Assembly (NCBI GenBank): GCA_028282785.1 | Contig: JANQHE010000062.1 | Span: forward strand, 1 to 44,641 | DNA from: Bacteroidales bacterium | Lineage (GTDB): Bacteria > Bacteroidota > Bacteroidia > Bacteroidales > UBA12077 | Length of the DNA: 44,641 nucleotides | Direction of reading: 5' to 3' | Part shown: in pieces, positions 15,310 through 38,324 of the stretch | Position numbering within the stretch: position 1 is the stretch's first letter | Layout: every line of letters starts with the position of its first letter | Made by a program: the position numbers and the translations under genes | Notes under the pieces: model-generated | Told to the model about the DNA's origin: nothing | Database searches by the model: none | Seen by the model: the letters and a program-made list of their open reading frames with translations, nothing else

Positions 15310-15350
15310 AAAAAAATAGATAGAAAAGAAGCCAGATTTAAACTGACTTC
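15310..15350 (-). terminator. Rho-independent terminator of the PGK-like gene
   Basis: GAAGCCAG (15328-15335) pairs with CTGACTTC (15343-15350) around a 7-base loop, allowing one G-U pair. On the minus strand it is followed by a T-run complementary to 15310-15316. It lies between the PGK-like gene and the phosphohexomutase gene. Confidence 0.7.
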
Positions 15351-15388
15351 TTTCAGAAAATTTATATCCACAAAAATGCGATTTTTTT

Positions 15389-16675
15389 TTATTTTGTTAA
15401 AGCTTTTACCGGTTCAATTCCCAAGGTTGTTCCTTCCTGAATTGCTTTTAAAACGGCACCACCACCGGTAAAAATATAATACTTAGGACTATCCAGGGCT
15501 ACAATATATAGTCCGGGTAATAATCTTTTAAGTTCTTGCATGGTGTCGCCACCACCGTATAATTTTACAGCTTCAACATTTTCATCAATTAATTCATCAA
15601 GAGCAATGGTGCCTTCATTAAAGTGCGGAGTAAACCCCATTACGGCATTCACAAAAATAGTTCGAGCCGATGAAAATATATCATGAATTTTTTCTTCGTA
15701 AAATGATTCTTTAGCTACATCAAGCACATAATTTAATTTAGTTCCGGATTTCAATTCATGAATATTATGAACTCTGTGTTTGCCTTCGAATTTGCCATCT
15801 AAAGTATCCGATTCAACAATAAAAGGAAGTTCAACTAATTTGCCCGGATATTGCTCGCTGAATTTTACAAATTCTTTGGCGTGCGTTAAGTCATCTTCAG
15901 ATATACCTTTAATTTCAATACCATATTTTGCATATAAGTATGCATTATAAATAACACCACCCAGTACCAAATAATCTGCTTTCTTAATTAAAGCATAAAG
16001 AGAATCAATTTTTGTGTCGAATTTGGATCCCGCAACGACTGCAATAAATGGAGATTGTGGACTATAGATTCTTTCAAGATTCTCAATTTCTTTCTGCATT
16101 AAAAAGCCGGCATAAGAAGGTAAGTATTTATTAACGCCTACAGTTGAAGCATGTGGTTGCCACGATCCGAAAGCATCATTAACAAAAATATCAGCCAAAC
16201 CTGCCAGCTGATTTGCAAATCGGTCCTGATCAGCACCTTTGGATTCTTCTCCTTGGAACCAACGAGTATTTGGTAAATAAATACCATCAATTTTTCCTTC
16301 TTTTAACTCACGGATAGAATGATTTATTGATGTTTCTATGCCTATGTATCCTTTATTTTCATGAGGATAAAAATCAGGAATTTTCATGTTGATATGCAAC
16401 TTGTTTCTCAGATATTCAACGATAGGTTCAACCGAGGTATCCTTGCTAATTTTAATATCACCGTTTTTTTTATCCTTAGGACGACCAACATGTGTCATTA
16501 GTATAATTTTACCGCCTTTTGCATTGATATGGTATAAAGTACCAATGGTTGCGTCTATTCTATACGGATCATGAATTACTCCTTTTTTAACCACATTATG
16601 ATCTACACGTACCAAAACAACTTTACCATTTAGATCTGCATCCTGGATAGATGGAATGTTATATTTTTCGAGCAT
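15389..16675 (-). CDS. Divergent phosphoglycerate kinase-family paralogue
   Basis: A 428-residue PGK-fold protein. Retained elements: RVDHN (23-27), an Arg like that of the TRI segment (Arg39), THVGRP (61-66), the Arg of NTRW (138), Lys218 and Lys223 of AGSKFDTK, GGGD (374-377) and TGGGA (403-407). Changed elements: the 3-phosphoglycerate loop AFGTAHRAHAS is AFGSWQPHAS, one residue shorter and lacking the His-Arg pair; the nucleotide loop WNGPxGVFE reads VNAVMGFTP; the N-terminal VDFNVP motif is VDHNVV. It is therefore unlikely to be a standard PGK and may act on another acyl phosphate or be regulatory. Start ATG 16675. It lies downstream of the two-domain PGK gene on the same strand, 277 bases apart. 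Confidence 0.8.
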   Translation of the reverse strand: MLEKYNIPSIQDADLNGKVVLVRVDHNVVKKGVIHDPYRIDATIGTLYHINAKGGKIILMTHVGRPKDKKNGDIKISKDTSVEPIVEYLRNKLHINMKIPDFYPHENKGYIGIETSINHSIRELKEGKIDGIYLPNTRWFQGEESKGADQDRFANQLAGLADIFVNDAFGSWQPHASTVGVNKYLPSYAGFLMQKEIENLERIYSPQSPFIAVVAGSKFDTKIDSLYALIKKADYLVLGGVIYNAYLYAKYGIEIKGISEDDLTHAKEFVKFSEQYPGKLVELPFIVESDTLDGKFEGKHRVHNIHELKSGTKLNYVLDVAKESFYEEKIHDIFSSARTIFVNAVMGFTPHFNEGTIALDELIDENVEAVKLYGGGDTMQELKRLLPGLYIVALDSPKYYIFTGGGAVLKAIQEGTTLGIEPVKALTK

Positions 16676-16952: not shown

Positions 16953-19337
16953 TTAGATATTTTCATTAATTGCCTTTAATGCAGGTAATTCTTTTCCTTC
17001 GATATATTCAAGTAATGCTCCTCCTGCCGTTGAAATGTAACTTATTTTATGTGCTAAACTAAACTTGTTTACAGCTGAAATTGAGTCACCCCCACCAATT
17101 AAAGAGAACGCACCTTTATCTGTTGCTCTGGCAACTGACATTGCTATTTTTAAAGTCCCCATGGAGAAATTCGACATTTCAAATACTCCAATTGGGCCAT
17201 TCCACAGTATGGTTGCAGAATTTTCAATTACCTCACAAAATTGGTTTGCCGATTTTATACCAATATCCAGTCCCATCCATCCATCTTTAATAGTGTGAAT
17301 TTCACTGTGCTCTATGTTAGCATCATTCTTAAAATCATCTGCAATTATACAATCCGTTGGTAAATATAAATTTATTCCCTTTTCTTTGGCTTTAGCTAGA
17401 ATTTCTTTTGCCACATCCAGGTAATCATCTTCAACTAAAGAATTTCCAATTTTTCCGCCCATTGCTTTGGCAAATGTAAATGCAATACCTCCTGCAATAA
17501 TCAGGTTGTCAACCTTTTCTATTAATGCTAAAATGATATGGATTTTAGTAGAAACTTTTGAACCACCAAGAATGGCTGTAAAAGGTTTTTTCGCTCGTTT
17601 AACCACTTTATCAATATTATTAATCTCGCTTTCTACAAGGTAACCAAACATTTTATCTTCCGGGAAAAATTTTGCTAAGGTATATGTTGAAGCATGAGCT
17701 CTATGTGCTGTTCCAAAGGCATTAAAAACATATACATCGCCTAACTCCGATAATTGTTTAGCAAATTTTTCATCAGCATCAGTTTCTTCTTTATGGAATC
17801 TTAAATTTTCGAGCAATAAGCATTCTCCCGGTTTTAAAACAGTTGTTGCAATAAGCGCTTCTTCACCAATACAATCATTTACAAATTTAACTTTACCATC
17901 TAAAGCTTTGTTTAGGAATGGATGAATATGCTTCAATGAGTATTTTTCATCAATTTTACCTTTTGGCCGTCCCAGGTGCGTTAAAAATATAATAGATCCA
18001 CCTTCGGCCAATATTTTTCTAGCTGTTGGTAATGCAGTAACAATTCTTGTTGAATCAGTTATTTCGAAGTTTTCATCTAACGGAACATTAAAATCAACAC
18101 GCATTAACACCTTCTTTCCTTCAAAACTGTACCTGTCAATATTTAAACCTTGTTTAACTGCTTTGATACTAGGTAACTCTTTGCCTTCCAAATACTCCAG
18201 TAATGCACCGCCCGCAGTTGAGATATAACTTATTTTGTGTGCAAGGCTGTATTTATTAACAGCAGCAATTGAATCTCCACCACCAATTAAAGAAAAAGCC
18301 CCCTTATCCGTAGCTCTGGCAACTGACATGGCTACCTTTAGTGTGCCCATTGCGAAACTTGGCATTTCAAAAACACCTATAGGCCCATTCCAAAGGATTT
18401 TCTTTGAATTTTCTATAACCTCTGCAAATCGGTTAGCTGTTTTTATACCAATATCCAATCCCATCCAGCCATCAGGAATTTCCATAATATCACAATGATC
18501 TATGTTAGCATCGTTCTTAAATTCATCTGCTATAACACAGTCTGTAGGTAAATATAATTTTACTTTATTTTTTTCTGCTTGTTTTATTATGTGCTTGGCA
18601 AAATCCAAGAAATCTTTTTCAACCAAAGAGTTACCAATATTACCTCCCATTGCTTTGGCAAAAGTAAACCCGATCCCACCTGCAATAATCAAATTATCTA
18701 CTTTTTCTATAAGTGATTCAATTATGTGTATCTTGGTAGAAACCTTTGAGCCTCCTAAAATGACAGTAAAAGGATGAATTGGTTGATGTAGTATCTTATC
18801 GATATTATTAATTTCACTTTCCACTAAATAGCCAAACAAACATTTCCCCGGAAAATATTTTGCTATTGTATATGTAGAGGCATGTGCCCTATGAGCTGTT
18901 CCGAATGCATTGTTAACATACACATCACCAAGTCGTGCTAATCTCTTTGCAAAGTCTTCATCCGCATCTGTTTCTTCTTTGTAAAATCTTAGATTTTCTA
19001 ATAAAAGAATTTCTCCTGACTTTAATTCATTTGCAAGTCCTTGTGCTTCTTCACTAATACAATCCTGTGCAAATTTAACCTCCTTTCCCATAACCTTAAT
19101 TAAATGAGGAAGAATAACTTTTAACGACATCTTTTCATTGAATTTTCCTTTGGGTCTCCCTAAGTGCGTTAACAAAATAATTGATCCTCCTTCGGCAATA
19201 ATTTTTTGGATAGTAGGGATCGCAGTAATTATCCTTGTATCATCGGTAATTTCAAGATTTTCGTTAAGAGGAACATTGAAATCAACACGCATTAACACCT
19301 TTTTCCCTGCAAAACTGTAGTTGTCGATAGAATACAT
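16953..19337 (-). CDS. pgk: Tandem-fused phosphoglycerate kinase (two complete PGK domains)
   Basis: PGK transfers phosphate between 1,3-bisphosphoglycerate and ADP in glycolysis. A normal enzyme has about 395 residues; this frame encodes 794, made of two full domains (about 1-395 and 399-794). The start is ATG 19337; TTG 19343 is the alternative. Domain 1 / domain 2 motifs: RVDFNVP (17-23 / 413-419), HLGRP (58-62 / 454-458), ENLRF Arg (117 / 513), HRAH (149-152 / 545-548), GGSK (195-198 / 591-594), WNGP (316-319 / 712-715), GGGDS (352-356 / 748-752). Both halves read STAGGA instead of the usual STGGGA, and VNN or VFN instead of VND. Hand alignment is ungapped at about 75% identity. Both sites look competent. 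The join (18138-18157) has no start codon. Confidence 0.93.
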   Translation of the reverse strand: MYSIDNYSFAGKKVLMRVDFNVPLNENLEITDDTRIITAIPTIQKIIAEGGSIILLTHLGRPKGKFNEKMSLKVILPHLIKVMGKEVKFAQDCISEEAQGLANELKSGEILLLENLRFYKEETDADEDFAKRLARLGDVYVNNAFGTAHRAHASTYTIAKYFPGKCLFGYLVESEINNIDKILHQPIHPFTVILGGSKVSTKIHIIESLIEKVDNLIIAGGIGFTFAKAMGGNIGNSLVEKDFLDFAKHIIKQAEKNKVKLYLPTDCVIADEFKNDANIDHCDIMEIPDGWMGLDIGIKTANRFAEVIENSKKILWNGPIGVFEMPSFAMGTLKVAMSVARATDKGAFSLIGGGDSIAAVNKYSLAHKISYISTAGGALLEYLEGKELPSIKAVKQGLNIDRYSFEGKKVLMRVDFNVPLDENFEITDSTRIVTALPTARKILAEGGSIIFLTHLGRPKGKIDEKYSLKHIHPFLNKALDGKVKFVNDCIGEEALIATTVLKPGECLLLENLRFHKEETDADEKFAKQLSELGDVYVFNAFGTAHRAHASTYTLAKFFPEDKMFGYLVESEINNIDKVVKRAKKPFTAILGGSKVSTKIHIILALIEKVDNLIIAGGIAFTFAKAMGGKIGNSLVEDDYLDVAKEILAKAKEKGINLYLPTDCIIADDFKNDANIEHSEIHTIKDGWMGLDIGIKSANQFCEVIENSATILWNGPIGVFEMSNFSMGTLKIAMSVARATDKGAFSLIGGGDSISAVNKFSLAHKISYISTAGGALLEYIEGKELPALKAINENI
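18138..18157 (-). other. Junction between the two PGK domains
   Basis: On the minus strand the codons read Lys-Gln-Gly-Leu-Asn-Ile: the C-terminal KAVKQ of domain 1 runs into IDRYSFEGKK of domain 2 through only three linker residues (Gly-Leu-Asn). There is no in-frame ATG, GTG or TTG at the position where domain 2 would begin as a separate gene. Confidence 0.85.
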
Positions 19338-19343
19338 TTTCAA

Positions 19344-21891: not shown

Positions 21892-22351
21892 AAATCTTTT
21901 CATTCTGTTAATATTGCTTGTGTTTTCAGCATGTGATCCAAACCAGGTTTATGAAAGCAATGTGGAAATTAACGATTATTCTTGGTATAAAGATTCGGTT
22001 ATTAAATTTGAAGTAGATATTCAGGATACTATAAATCCGCATAATATTTATCTTAATGTTCGAAATACATCTCGCTATAAGATGCAAAACCTTTTTCTTT
22101 TTATAAATACTACAGCTCCTTCTGGTTTTGCGATTAGTGATACGTTTGAGTGTTACTTGGCAGATGAAAGAGGTAAATGGACAGGTAGTGGATGGGGAGA
22201 TATTTATGATAATCAATTTATTTACAAAAAGAATATTCGATTTCCTGTTTCAGGAATTTATACTTTTGAATATATTCAAGCAATGCGAACCGATAAATTA
22301 GAATATATTTCTGATATAGGACTTAGAATAGAGAAAGTTGAAATTCAATAA
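21869..22351 (+). CDS. gldH: Gliding motility lipoprotein GldH
   Basis: A lipoprotein of about 160 residues (155 from the alternative ATG at 21884) with a hydrophobic signal ending in the lipobox FSAC, followed by Asp-Pro-Asn. Family signatures include WYKDSVIKFEV, NPHNIYLNVRNTSRY, ERGKWTGSGWGDIYDN and RFPVSGIYTFEYIQAMR, which I recognise as GldH. In Flavobacterium johnsoniae GldH is needed for gliding and T9SS function. It overlaps the end of the PSP1 gene by 8 to 23 bases, a gene order I recall from other Bacteroidota. A longer in-frame extension to 21809 is not credible because it would precede the signal peptide with a basic stretch. It is followed by trmB 20 bases later. Confidence 0.9.
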   Translation: MTRNLMHKNLFILLILLVFSACDPNQVYESNVEINDYSWYKDSVIKFEVDIQDTINPHNIYLNVRNTSRYKMQNLFLFINTTAPSGFAISDTFECYLADERGKWTGSGWGDIYDNQFIYKKNIRFPVSGIYTFEYIQAMRTDKLEYISDIGLRIEKVEIQ

Positions 22352-22371
22352 GCTTATAATATCAGCTAAAA

Positions 22372-23067
22372 GTGGGAAAGAAAAAATTGCAGAGGTTTGC
22401 CGAAATGAAAACCTTTGATCATGTTATTCAACCACCATTTGATGAGGTGTTTAAAAAAGATTTCAGATTAAAAGGAAAATGGAGCAGAGATTTCTTTGAG
22501 AATGATAATCCTCTTATTGTGGAATTAGGTTGTGGTAAAGGAGAATATACAGTCGGTTTAGCAAAACAAAATCCGGAAATTAATTTTATTGGGATTGATA
22601 TTAAAGGAGCACGAATGTGGAGAGGCGCTAAAACTGCTGTTGAAGATGAAATAAGAAATGTTGGTTTTTTGAGAACACGTGTTGATTTGATTAATTCCTT
22701 TTTTGCCGATGAGGAAATTTCTGAAATTTGGATAACTTTTCCTGATCCTCAACCTAAAAAATATTACAAGCGACTTACTTCAACCCGATTTTTGGGATAT
22801 TATCAAAAGTTAATCGTAAATGACGGCTATGTAAATCTTAAAACCGACAATGCCGATTTATATACATATACAAAAGAACTCGTGGAATTAAATAATTTGG
22901 AGATAGCAACTAGTACAGACAACTTATATAAATCAGGTAGAGCAAGCGAGATTCTTTCTATAAAAACTTTTTACGAACAACAATTCTTGGCTCAGGAAAA
23001 GCCAATTCATTATATAAAATTCAAACTTGAAAAAAACATTGAACTTGAAGAACCAGAAGAAAAATAG
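22372..23067 (+). CDS. trmB: tRNA (guanine-N7-)-methyltransferase
   Basis: Makes m7G46 in the variable loop of tRNAs, using SAM. The 231-residue length is typical. The SAM site is VELGCGKGEYTVGLA, with acidic Asp in FIGIDIKGARMWRGA. The TrmB hallmark WITFPDPQPKKYYKRLT is followed by RFL. The start is GTG 22372, supported by the family N-terminus GKKKLQRFAEMKTF directly after it. The gene is co-directional with gldH and overlaps the following alkyltransferase-like gene. Identification is secure. Confidence 0.95.
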   Translation: MGKKKLQRFAEMKTFDHVIQPPFDEVFKKDFRLKGKWSRDFFENDNPLIVELGCGKGEYTVGLAKQNPEINFIGIDIKGARMWRGAKTAVEDEIRNVGFLRTRVDLINSFFADEEISEIWITFPDPQPKKYYKRLTSTRFLGYYQKLIVNDGYVNLKTDNADLYTYTKELVELNNLEIATSTDNLYKSGRASEILSIKTFYEQQFLAQEKPIHYIKFKLEKNIELEEPEEK

Positions 23068-23389
23068 CGGTTTTTTTAATCAGGTTTATGAGGTTGCAAG
23101 GCAAATTCCATTTGGACGCGTAACCAGTTATGGAGCAATTGCTAAATTTTTGGGAACAGCACAATCGGCAAGGGTTGTTGGTTGGGCTATGAACGACTCC
23201 CATATTTCCAGAAAATTTGTGCCGGCTCATCGTGTTGTAAACAGAAATGGAGTTTTAACAGGTAAACATCATTTTGGAAATTCAAATACTATGAAACAAC
23301 TTCTCGAAAATGAAGGTATTAGAGTTGAAGATGATCAAATTATAGATTTTGAAAAACACTTCTGGGATCCATCTAAAGAATTGTTGTAA
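23027..23389 (+). CDS. Alkyltransferase-like protein (MGMT family, no catalytic Cys)
   Basis: A protein of about 115-120 residues with the DNA-binding domain of O6-alkylguanine-DNA alkyltransferases: PFGRVTSYGAIAKFLG, then SARVVGWAMND with the finger arginine, then FVPAHRVVNRNGVLTG. The active-site PCHR motif is PAHR (Ala67), so it cannot take up alkyl groups. Alkyltransferase-like proteins (Atl) bind alkylated guanine and flag it for nucleotide excision repair; that role is inferred here. No ATG is available. The frame can open at TTG 23027, 23039 or 23045, and the last best matches the family length. In every case it overlaps the end of trmB, implying coupled expression. Confidence 0.85.
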   Translation: MKKTLNLKNQKKNSGFFNQVYEVARQIPFGRVTSYGAIAKFLGTAQSARVVGWAMNDSHISRKFVPAHRVVNRNGVLTGKHHFGNSNTMKQLLENEGIRVEDDQIIDFEKHFWDPSKELL

Positions 23390-23456
23390 ATACAGTTTAT
23401 ATCCTATAACATTTAAAACTTTCAGCCTTAAACTCAAAACTAAATAACTAAATTAT

Positions 23457-23464
23457 TATCTTTG
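23457..23464 (+). promoter_or_regulatory. Bacteroidota -7 promoter element of mrp
   Basis: TATCTTTG is an exact TAnnTTTG match located 40 bases before ATG 23504. The region upstream is A/C-rich and shows no TTG at -33. It would drive mrp and the NifU-like gene. Confidence 0.55.
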
Positions 23465-23503
23465 TCACGTTAATTTAAATTAAATAAAAATAAGGATAAA
23501 GAT

Positions 23504-24619
23504 ATGTCTTATTCCAGTAAACAAATATTAGATGCTCTTAGAAATGTAAAACATCCTGAAACAGGACAGGATATTATTTCCATGGGAATGGTTGATGATA
23601 TTTGGATTGAAGGAAATAAAGCAGGATTTACATTAAGTTTTAAAAAACCTACTGATCCATTTATAAATTCAATGCAAAAGGTTTGTATCCAGGTATTAGG
23701 GCAAGAGTTAGGTAAGGATTTGGATTTCAATGGTAACATTAAAATTAAAACTCCTGAGTTAAAATCTAAAACACAAAAGCAAGAAGCAGAGTCTTTAAAG
23801 GATGTAAAAAATGTTATTGCTGTTGCTTCTGGTAAAGGTGGAGTTGGAAAATCCACGGTGGCAACAAATTTGGCAATCTCGTTAGCAAAAACCGGGGCAA
23901 AAGTTGGGTTAATAGATGCAGATATTTATGGACCATCAATTCCAAAAATGTTTAATGTGGAAGGCCAACGGCCGTTTGTTAGAAAAGTAGGAGAAGTTGA
24001 TATGATTACTCCTGTCGAAAACTATGGAGTAAAGATCTTATCGATCGGATTTTTTATAAATCCTGAAGATGCTTTGGTTTGGCGGGGTGCTATGGCAACA
24101 AGTGCTCTGAAACAATTAATTCATCAAGCTGAATGGGGCGAACTTGATTATTTGGTAATTGATTTACCACCAGGCACAAGTGACGTTCATTTAACCTTAG
24201 TGCAGGAAACTTCGGTTACCGGAGCACTTATAGTAAGTACACCACAAGAGGTTGCATTAGCAGATGCAATAAAAGGAATAAAAATGTTTACAGGTAAACA
24301 GATCAATGTGCCTATTCTTGGTTTGATCGAAAATATGTCATGGTTTACACCGGAAGAATTGCCAGACAATAAATACTATATTTTTGGTAAGGATGGGTGT
24401 AAAAACCTTGCAGAAAAAGAGAATATTTCTTTACTTGGTCAGATTCCAATTGTTCAAAGTATTCGAGAAGGAGGTGATTATGGTAACCCTGCTTCTTTAA
24501 ATGAAGGATCAATTGTAGAGATTGCATTTAAGGAATTATCAACTGCTGTGATAAATGCAGTTGAACAGAGAAACATTGAGCTGGAACCTACAAAAAGAGT
24601 AGAAATTAAAACTAGGTAA
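23504..24619 (+). CDS. Mrp/NBP35-family iron-sulfur cluster carrier ATPase
   Basis: A 371-residue cytoplasmic P-loop ATPase that carries and delivers Fe-S clusters (ApbC/Mrp). An N-terminal MIP18/DUF59 domain (about 1-95) precedes the deviant Walker A ASGKGGVGKST, the Walker A' region LIDADIYGPSIP and the Walker B-like IDLPPGTSD. The bridging CxxC of E. coli ApbC and NBP35, which should follow ENMSWF, is missing; the segment is TPEELPDNKYYIFGKDGC, with a single Cys. I recall this as the usual Bacteroidota form. The gene precedes the NifU-like gene by 17 bases and they share a terminator, consistent with a Fe-S operon. Confidence 0.92.
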   Translation: MSYSSKQILDALRNVKHPETGQDIISMGMVDDIWIEGNKAGFTLSFKKPTDPFINSMQKVCIQVLGQELGKDLDFNGNIKIKTPELKSKTQKQEAESLKDVKNVIAVASGKGGVGKSTVATNLAISLAKTGAKVGLIDADIYGPSIPKMFNVEGQRPFVRKVGEVDMITPVENYGVKILSIGFFINPEDALVWRGAMATSALKQLIHQAEWGELDYLVIDLPPGTSDVHLTLVQETSVTGALIVSTPQEVALADAIKGIKMFTGKQINVPILGLIENMSWFTPEELPDNKYYIFGKDGCKNLAEKENISLLGQIPIVQSIREGGDYGNPASLNEGSIVEIAFKELSTAVINAVEQRNIELEPTKRVEIKTR

Positions 24620-24636
24620 ATTTAAATAATAATAAG

Positions 24637-24882
24637 ATGGAAGAAACTAAGAGACAAGACCTTGAAAAAAGAGTAAATGAAGCAATTGATGTGGTAAGAC
24701 CATATTTAGTTGCTGATGGCGGTGATATTAAATTTGTAGAACTTACCGATGATATGGTTGTTAAGGTGCAGTTGCTTGGAGCGTGTGGTGCATGCCCGTA
24801 CAGCATTCAAACATTAAAGAATGGTGTTGAGCAAGCTGTGAAAAAGCAAATACCGGAAATAAAAGAAGTTGTTTCTGCTTAA
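24637..24882 (+). CDS. NifU-like C-terminal domain Fe-S scaffold
   Basis: An 81-residue protein made only of the NifU C-terminal domain. The cluster-binding CxxC is in LGACGACPYSIQTL, and the preceding VRPYLVADGGDIKFVEL is the family's conserved strand-turn region. Such proteins hold a transient Fe-S cluster and pass it to targets. It lies 17 bases downstream of mrp and is followed by a strong terminator, so the two genes form a transcription unit. The length is normal for stand-alone Nfu-type proteins. Confidence 0.93.
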   Translation: MEETKRQDLEKRVNEAIDVVRPYLVADGGDIKFVELTDDMVVKVQLLGACGACPYSIQTLKNGVEQAVKKQIPEIKEVVSA

Positions 24883-36317: not shown

Positions 36318-38324
36318 ATGGATTTCTTAAAAAAAGGAAATTTTAGAATATTATATTTATTATTATCTGTCATAATTTCCACAGGATTTACAGATATAGA
36401 CCTCCCTTTAGAAAAGGAAGATCAGAAGAAATTAGAAAAGGCTCTTAAACTTAATCAAGAGGCCCAGGGATTTCTTGATAAAGCAAATGCCATATATTCT
36501 ACGCTGGCACAGTACGATAAGTCGGACGGAAGTAACTCAAAGAAAATTGGTAAGCTCGAAAAAGATGCCATAGAACTGCAATTAAAAGCTTTGGAGCTTC
36601 AAGGAGAAGCAAATTGGTTAGAAAGAAGCGTTTATAAAAAAGTTATACCATTATTAAAATCAGATTATTCAAAGAATAATAAAATTACTGTTGAGTTTAG
36701 TTTGCTCGAAGAAAAGATTGAAGAGCTATTTTTAAAAGCAGAAAATTTTAAATATGAGGCTGAAAAATTAGGGAAAGATGAATCTTACACAAAATTTTCA
36801 AAATTATCAGAAGCACAAAAATTAGAAAAAGAAAGTATTCTAAATCAAAAGGAATTAATTAATTATTACCTGGGAAAAGAAACAATTGATTTAAAAAATC
36901 AAAATGCTGGAAGTCAGTATGAAAAAGAGGTTGTAATAAATGATGATCTTTTAAGAGCATATATGAATTATGTGAACTCACAAGACACCCTGATCACTGT
37001 AGATGTTTTCCGTAATTTAATGTATTCGGGTCAATTTTCAGCATCTGATTTTCGTGATACCTGGGATAATTATATATATGCAGATGTGGTTTATGCCGAT
37101 CGCACAGATTCATTAGAAATGGATATAATTGCCGAAGCTGATGCGAAAATTGCTGATACGGAAACAGATCAACATAATGAAACGGAAAAAGAAGATATTC
37201 TTACAGGAGCTGTATACAAAGTTCAAATAGCCGCTAATAGTAGCCCATTATCACAGCATCATTTAAAGAAAATATATGATGGTAACAAGAAAGTGCAAAT
37301 GGTTAGTGAGGATGATTGGTATAAATACTCTATAGGCGATTTTAATTCTTATGCAGAAGCTGAAGAATTTAAACGATCATTAAAAATTACTGATGCATTT
37401 GTTGTTGCATATACCGATAATAAAAAAGTGGACCTGTTGGCTTTAAATAAGGATAATAAAGCTTCTAAAAAACAAACAACTTCTACGATTAAGGGATTAA
37501 TATTTAAAGTTCAGGTTGCAGCTAGTAGAAATAAATTATCAGATGCTTATCTAAAAGAAATTTACAATGGAAACGAAACAATTGACATCTTAATCGAAGA
37601 CAATTGGTATAAATATTCTTTAGGTAAATTTAATAAATATGATCAGGCATTAGATTTAAAAAATCAAATAAATGTTAACGGTGCATTTATAGTGGCATAT
37701 CAAAATGGGGTAAAAGTTTCATTATATGACGCAAAAAAAGGAGTGCTTTCAACTGAATTGGGGCAGATTGTTTTCAAAGTTCAAATCGCAGCAGATATAA
37801 AATCATTAAGTTCTGAAAAACTTCATAGTATTTATTCTGGTTATGAAAACATTAAAATGTTTAAAGAAGATGGATGGTTTAAGTATTCAATCGGGGAATT
37901 TAAAACCTTTAATGAAGCAAATATTTTAAGAAAGAACAGTAACGTGGATGGAGCATTTGTGATAGCCTTCAGAGGGAATAAAAAAATGAATGTCCTGGAA
38001 GCAAAAAAAATGACAAAATGCAAAGATCCGGTTTTTAATACGGATTGGTTAAATACAAATACAGAACTTGTATTCAAAGTGCAAATTGCGGCAAGTTTAA
38101 AGGAGTTAAATGAAAATCAAATAAAAAAGATCTGTTGCATTGAAGAGGATATTTACGTTACTAAGGAAGATGAATGGTATAGGTACTCAATTGGTAGTTT
38201 TAAATCTTATATCAATGCAGTTCAGTTAAAACAAATATCTAATGTTAATGGAGCATTTATCGTGGCTTATAAAAACGGTAGAAAACTTGGATTAAAAGAA
38301 GCAATGAAAGTATTAAATAAATAA
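36318..38324 (+). CDS. Exported coiled-coil protein with four SPOR-like repeats
   Basis: A 668-residue protein. A hydrophobic N-terminal segment (residues 10-24) is a signal peptide or anchor. Residues 30-195 are Lys/Glu-rich and likely coiled coil. Four repeats of about 77 residues follow at about 299-375, 395-470, 484-560 and 584-661. Each has the pattern F/Y-K-V-Q-I-A-A, then an IY-x-G segment, W-[FY]-[KR]-Y-S-[IL]-G-x-F, and D/N-G/A-A-F-[IV]-[VI]-A-[YF]. This resembles SPOR (sporulation-related) domains, which bind denuded peptidoglycan, though the resemblance is by pattern only. It starts at ATG 36318 and precedes the Wza and Wzc genes by 21 bases, so it probably belongs to the polysaccharide export unit. 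Its exact role is unknown. Confidence 0.8.
   Translation: MDFLKKGNFRILYLLLSVIISTGFTDIDLPLEKEDQKKLEKALKLNQEAQGFLDKANAIYSTLAQYDKSDGSNSKKIGKLEKDAIELQLKALELQGEANWLERSVYKKVIPLLKSDYSKNNKITVEFSLLEEKIEELFLKAENFKYEAEKLGKDESYTKFSKLSEAQKLEKESILNQKELINYYLGKETIDLKNQNAGSQYEKEVVINDDLLRAYMNYVNSQDTLITVDVFRNLMYSGQFSASDFRDTWDNYIYADVVYADRTDSLEMDIIAEADAKIADTETDQHNETEKEDILTGAVYKVQIAANSSPLSQHHLKKIYDGNKKVQMVSEDDWYKYSIGDFNSYAEAEEFKRSLKITDAFVVAYTDNKKVDLLALNKDNKASKKQTTSTIKGLIFKVQVAASRNKLSDAYLKEIYNGNETIDILIEDNWYKYSLGKFNKYDQALDLKNQINVNGAFIVAYQNGVKVSLYDAKKGVLSTELGQIVFKVQIAADIKSLSSEKLHSIYSGYENIKMFKEDGWFKYSIGEFKTFNEANILRKNSNVDGAFVIAFRGNKKMNVLEAKKMTKCKDPVFNTDWLNTNTELVFKVQIAASLKELNENQIKKICCIEEDIYVTKEDEWYRYSIGSFKSYINAVQLKQISNVNGAFIVAYKNGRKLGLKEAMKVLNK

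Follow-up and report, generated by a model that had tools for sequence, protein, structure and literature searches.

Two complete phosphoglycerate kinases fused head to tail in one reading frame in several Bacteroidales lineages

The tandem gene and its neighbourhood

The window, i.e. the whole 44,641-nucleotide stretch of DNA analysed here, is contig 46 of a 5.5-Mb genome in 81 contigs that is rated 100% complete. Its minus strand carries a gene for two phosphoglycerate kinases (PGKs) in one reading frame, followed by a third PGK gene of a divergent type. The features considered below are:

16953..19337, minus strand: tandem PGK-PGK gene, 794 aa plus stop (open reading frame, translation and two PF00162 domains)
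18150..19337, minus strand: half 1 (N half), a complete PGK, residues 1-396; PF00162 match of 508.1 bits at 18180-19328
18732..18755, minus strand: GGSKVSTK of half 1 with lysines K198 and K202 (alignment)
18112..18176, minus strand: linker-less junction LPSIKAVKQGLNIDRYSFEGKK (junction pattern and codons; low model confidence)
16956..18149, minus strand: half 2 (C half), a complete PGK, residues 397-794; PF00162 match of 489.3 bits at 16992-18140
17544..17567, minus strand: GGSKVSTK of half 2 with lysines K594 and K598 (alignment)
15389..16675, minus strand: third, divergent PGK of 428 aa (PF00162), directly downstream of the tandem
15324..15354, minus strand: terminator-like hairpin after the divergent PGK (consensus scan only)

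The tandem frame opens with an ATG at 19337 and closes with the stop codon at 16953-16955, and an in-frame TTG at 19343 offers a possible 2-aa N-terminal extension. An earlier note on this DNA had described two complete PGKs in one frame, about 75% identical without gaps and both equipped with the PGK motifs, and this description holds in every part; the minus-strand orientation and the divergent third PGK gene are additions to it. Two Pfam PF00162 matches summing to 988.5 bits were obtained on the protein, each half covering profile positions 1-379 of 379 (cut-off 27 bits), and the halves are 75.4% identical over 394 ungapped positions. RVDFNVP, HLGRP, ENLRF, HRAH, GGSKxxxK, WNGP and GGGDS, which we take to be the 3-phosphoglycerate- and nucleotide-site motifs, are present in both halves, and 19 of 19 motif positions checked in the alignment are intact in each. 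The lysines K198/K202 and K594/K598 presumably correspond to human K215/K219.

In the window genus both halves are under equally strong purifying selection, with a median dN/dS of 0.061 for the N half and 0.058 for the C half (medians from 22 and 26 of 120 pairs, respectively, with dS below 1.5; the set was taken without L071, L075 and L087, and dN was left unused, owing to register errors, for L068-L078, L062-L074 and the N versus C comparison of L096). AlphaFold2 modelling of 30 tandems gave two PGK folds with a mean pLDDT of 81.3 and a pTM of 0.51. The pLDDT fell below 50 at the joint (residues 388-398), so that the model fixes the folds and not the mutual orientation of the halves; in such a model the joint may be accessible to proteases. 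The best Foldseek matches are solved single PGKs covering one half (3q3v_B first; 3q3v_A with TMt 0.97).

At the junction, the C-terminal tail of half 1 (LPSIKAVKQ) is followed immediately by the N-terminal head of half 2 (GLNIDRYSF), which may be set beside the protein's own start, MYSIDNYSF. The observation that half 2 lacks a start codon of its own extends beyond the window: in all 30 tandems examined, window included, the codon where the Met used to be is not ATG, GTG or TTG. Other in-frame ATG, GTG or TTG codons lie near this site at positions that vary between lineages, namely a TTG one codon past it in L079 and L081, an ATG or GTG three codons past it in L096 and L069, and an ATG 11 residues into half 2 that is common in the window genus and also found in L062, L069 and L087. 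A start at the last of these would remove the first strand of half 2. With the old Met site empty in 30 of 30 tandems and the nearby candidates unconserved between lineages, an internal start for half 2 looks unlikely. Promoter scans of the window gave counts at chance level.

The host genome contains three PF00162 matches, all at the tandem locus (the two halves and the divergent 428-aa PGK), which leaves the tandem as its only canonical PGK; GAPDH is matched once. The divergent PGK is 33.0% and 30.7% identical to the two tandem halves. It has Gln at the position that we assign to human R170 and has lost the one that we assign to human E343, while both lysines and GGGD are retained. In 11 of the 20 genus genomes (host counted) it lies less than 500 nt from the tandem on the same strand. 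The hairpin at 15324..15354 could possibly mark the end of a transcript comprising both genes, the consensus scan having returned 5 such hairpins against 3.3 expected in shuffles.

Members of the divergent family (L022, L056-L060 and L191-L193) are about 31-33% identical to the canonical halves. No canonical PGK was found among the five genomes of the sister genus, four of which have the divergent type only and one of which (57% complete) has no match; the divergent type is likewise the sole PF00162 match in eight sampled genomes of other families. GAPDH is present in 10 of the 12 genomes with the divergent PGK alone, so it may be their working PGK, and by the same token the copy adjoining the tandem may account for some or even all of the PGK flux. 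An extra full-length canonical PGK was absent from 10 genomes of the order with a tandem or tandem-derived gene (G033, G057, G077, G105, G106, G170, G180, G184, G208 and G209). In another set of nine genomes, G513 has an extra single PGK and G510 an extra fragment.

Elsewhere in the window, a 668-aa reading frame at 36318-38324 (plus strand) contains four similar repeats of the [VF]KVQIAA type that look SPOR-like by eye. A small reading frame at 23027-23389 (plus strand) that by eye looks MGMT/alkyltransferase-like overlaps the methyltransferase-like frame before it at that frame's end.

Distribution of the tandem

The tandem was found in 18 of the 19 other genomes of the window genus, each time with a period of 1188 nt and free of stop codons; the exception, G013, is a genome of 78% completeness. 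Within the order, 20 of 393 sampled genomes matched a tandem profile at E ≤1e-210; for comparison, the best single PGK in the search of the class had 4.9e-188. These genomes belong to families f1 (5), f10 (2), f34 (2), f48 (1), f54 (3) and f83 (3), the f48 case and both f10 cases reaching contig ends, and to f82 (4), in which the tandem has a degenerate form. Beyond the order, no tandem other than that of the window's own genome was seen among 295 genomes of the class (next best 626 versus 1606 bits), and among 395 genomes of the phylum only the window's own genome was tandem-like.

A DNA pattern specific for the junction recognised all 28 tandem loci, two of which are the window, and none of 32 other loci. 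Applied to a collection of 84,980 species, it returned 41 stretches, of which three (L073, L076 and L077) are chance matches and 38 are true tandems from 37 genomes, several of them also in the genus set; the scan sees this junction only, and fusions with another junction escape it. Ten of the 38 stretches are truncated at a record end. The earlier view that the fusion is more than two genes joined through one sequencing error is borne out by its presence in 18 genus genomes and in these 38 stretches. The stretches share the junction motif K-[QDEN]-x-[FYL]-x-[VIML]-D, and the alignment of tandems across families contains few indels. All 38 come from MAG or uncultured records, with 36 labelled Bacteroidota, one Delongbacteria (L071, genome G509) and one Aminicenantes (L069, genome G510); the latter two may represent transfer, mislabelled bins or mixed bins. 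In G509 the divergent PGK directly follows the tandem on the same strand, as it does in much of the window genus. A different arrangement was noted on contig 21 of G163 (22063-24736; L039 and L190), where two unfused single PGKs of different clades are adjacent on one strand.

Across this set, 29 of the 38 stretches have no change at the covered motif positions. The nine that are changed at one or more checked positions comprise six with both N317D and S356T in the N half, L063 with His58 to Ser in the N half, and two in which an S-to-T substitution is the sole change (the C half of L069, and L072, which is partial).

Evolution of the two halves

To place the halves among other PGKs we used several trees. 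In a 66-row IQ-TREE analysis all tandem halves formed one clade (100/99), whose sister group consists of single PGKs from other families of Bacteroidales (union 97/89). This tree was drawn from a 91-row set by taking out the f82 remnants (two rows), 14 tandem rows that were partial or redundant, and 9 singles; the earlier tree had itself used 91 of 186 rows, without L155_S, L106_K and L109_K. Single PGKs in the 91- and 66-row trees came from f27, f28, f40, f50, f52, f80, f87, f91, f96 and f120, and those of f13 were sampled in a 186-row FastTree. There, with L155_S, L106_K and L109_K included, 77 tandem rows (f82 among them) were split with support 100 from the single PGKs, 98 from the order and 11 from the class. 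The proposed tree of halves together with single-domain PGKs thus places no sampled single PGK inside the clade of halves.

Within that clade, the N and C halves of the window genus pair as sisters (98/87) in the 66-row tree, and so do the f34 halves (98/88); none of 200 bootstrap trees united the N halves in a clade. Neither a single N clade (p 0.29) nor a single C clade (p 0.316) was rejected by an AU test, which used 53 rows, without tandem rows L061, L067, L072, L082 and L092, most singles, L155_S, L106_K and L109_K. We also counted concerted sites, where the halves of a protein agree and the proteins differ, against orthologous sites, where N agrees with N and C with C. Concerted sites were in excess in 14 of the 16 comparisons made between lineages, including all 11 that involve the window (e.g. 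18:7, 16:3 and 19:4), the exceptions being L100-L062 and L062-L071 with orthologous:concerted counts of 18:12 and 20:6. The same ratio in five within-lineage comparisons was 24:4, 28:3, 33:4, 27:3 and 13:9. These comparisons share sequences and are hence not independent. No clear gene-conversion tracts were seen, a runs test giving clustering at p ≤0.03 in only 2 of 21 pairs (L065-L080 and L075-L096), and dS between the halves of one protein is near saturation (1.22-2.71 in the six proteins, of seven, that could be used), which gives no sign of recent conversion. From one family to another, evolution of the halves seems to have been largely concerted. The evidence for this tentative conclusion lies in the starred branches of the 66-row tree and in the site counts; one fusion with early homogenisation in most lineages would explain the concerted site counts together with the shared junction.

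Some relatives are asymmetric. In the lineage made up of L062, L068, L074, L078, L082 and L088, hereafter the Asp lineage, Asn317 of the N half is replaced by Asp (WDGP) in six of six sequences, and GGSK reads GGDK in five and GGNK in one. Identity to the window genus is 59% for the N halves and 67% for the C halves (five of six compared). The N half of the Asp lineage likely has reduced activity because acidic groups would lie beside the nucleotide-site lysine. GWF2_38_335 (L047/L063) has Ser at His58 of its N half. The four f82 genomes (L212-L215) encode a 638-aa protein in which a C-lobe remnant precedes a full PGK (AlphaFold2 pLDDT 83.6, pTM 0.77). In the remnant GGSK has become GGDK, the second lysine Gln and GGGDS DGDDT; it groups with the N halves of the Asp lineage (100 SH-aLRT, 91-row tree) on a very long branch of 4.56, and the full domain falls inside the tandem clade (100/99, 66-row tree). 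The dN/dS of the remnant is 0.063-0.083 in six of six pairs, compared with 0.007-0.012 for the full domain, so the remnant is under selection; as judged from its residues, it is a catalytically broken C-lobe. The full domain looks mosaic, residues 81-160 being closer to Bacteroides-like single PGKs and residues 161-200 and 321-360 to tandem C halves. Some side branches appear to be losing one PGK copy.

Interpretation and comparison with known systems

The tandem is real and conserved. We consider it probable that each chain is a covalent PGK dimer whose two active sites both work, derived from one head-to-tail fusion that replaced the single enzyme. In such a scheme, a single Bacteroidales PGK gene would have been duplicated head to tail, the copies fused in frame without a linker and with loss of the second copy's start Met, and the tandem would then have taken the place of the single PGK. 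Each half would fold as a full two-lobed PGK and very probably catalyses 1,3-bisphosphoglycerate + ADP <-> 3-phosphoglycerate + ATP, the chain staying uncleaved. After the one fusion, the halves would have been homogenised early in most lineages, and on a side branch the N half would have lost its catalytic role. The benefit may be dosage together with a fixed stoichiometry of two sites; co-location of the active sites is a further possible gain.

Other readings of the same data were weighed against the covalent dimer. That a sequencing or assembly artefact joined two neighbouring genes has a negligible probability: the identical fusion occurs in independent assemblies, and the old Met site of half 2 holds no start codon in 30 of 30 tandems. 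Since the conserved junction is repeated in independently assembled genomes, such an error, or joining by a single error, was ruled out. Had each family duplicated and fused its own PGK, one would expect the sister N and C halves seen in the window genus (98/87) and f34 (98/88), the lack of an N clade in 200 bootstraps and the predominance of concerted sites in 14 of 16 between-lineage comparisons; against this stand the linker-less junction with similar letters common to the 38 named stretches, the single clade of all halves against all sampled singles, and the AU test, which leaves both one N clade (p 0.29) and one C clade (p 0.316) standing. We therefore hold repeated independent fusions to be unlikely.

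The fate of the chain and of its two sites may also be viewed differently. Cleavage at the junction into two ordinary monomers would agree with the low model confidence at residues 388-398 (pLDDT below 50) and has a precedent in the Euglena chloroplast PGK (PMC7729029, section 7.1.2), but the tail is fused directly to the head with no added linker and with equal domain spacing in 18 of 18 genus tandems, indels are few across families, and the f82 remnant stays in frame with its full PGK; cleavage is accordingly very improbable. The earlier note had named division of labour as a possible gain, with one half glycolytic and the other gluconeogenic; more broadly, the halves might differ in kinetics or direction, or one might be turning regulatory as in mammalian hexokinase I and eukaryotic PFK. 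For the window genus this fits poorly, as the halves have complete motif sets and equal dN/dS and, in 11 of 11 window comparisons, the two halves of a protein resemble each other at more sites than they resemble their counterparts, which suits the same function. The idea gains from the asymmetric relatives, i.e. the Asp-lineage N halves with N317D in six of six sequences, GGDK or GGNK, and 59% identity against 67% for the C halves, and the f82 N half, a broken C-lobe under purifying selection (dN/dS 0.063-0.083). Taken together, division of labour seems unlikely for the tandem.

Starting again from the covalent dimer, one may tentatively arrange the forms in a duplication-fusion series resembling hexokinase or PFK, from the window tandem through the Asp-lineage N halves to the dead but selected nucleotide lobe of f82 with its full PGK, although we think this series somewhat doubtful. 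If it were true, the derived forms would be PGKs with allosteric or cooperative behaviour, their N half sensing a ligand and tuning the C half, with the window tandem as their starting point. In any case, several Bacteroidales lineages have a fused double PGK in place of the single enzyme, which lets one ask why a glycolytic kinase is kept as a covalent dimer. The benefit of the tandem can be tested through relatives whose N half is changed or broken, and those in which one half looks weakened or broken let one ask how a second active site turns into a pseudoenzyme domain.

The nearest relatives among known systems are of several kinds. Single-domain Bacteroidales PGKs, the sister clade, have the same motifs and per-domain length as the tandem halves and differ in having one domain per chain. 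Mammalian hexokinases I-III and eukaryotic PFK are glycolytic kinases enlarged by duplication and fusion, in which one half can turn non-catalytic or regulatory. They differ from PGK in fold and reaction, and both PGK halves of the window genus look active; judged by residues only, the window lacks the one inactive half of a hexokinase I-like enzyme.

The NCBIfam model for PGK-TIM, NF010569, scores 1005.9 bits on the window tandem against a cut-off of 883 bits. Its best match extends over model positions 5-393 of 645, and the Pfam search gave two PGK domains but no TIM, so membership of the PGK-TIM family was rejected; the model apparently passes by its PGK part matching twice. A PGK/TIM model that passes its cut-off on a TIM-less protein calls for caution in automated annotation. 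The tandem is indeed distinct, as first noted, from the PGK-TIM fusion of Thermotoga maritima (PMC7729029, section 4), which resembles it as a bacterial PGK covalently joined to another glycolytic enzyme domain but has TIM as the partner.

According to the same 2020 review (PMC7729029), PGK is as a rule monomeric. The initial impression that no PGK-PGK fusion had been described holds for bacteria, where none was found in open-access full texts, so that as far as this literature was searched the tandem is undescribed in bacteria; it does not hold for eukaryotes. The nearest described case is the chloroplast PGK of Euglena gracilis, which PMC7729029 (section 7.1.2) presents as a two-PGK polyprotein that a thiol protease of the stroma splits into two almost identical enzymes of 423 aa. 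Both systems place two complete PGKs head to tail in one open reading frame. The Euglena protein is eukaryotic, plastid-targeted and cleaved into near-identical products, whereas the window tandem is bacterial, has halves that are 75% identical, and has its origin inside the Bacteroidales PGKs.
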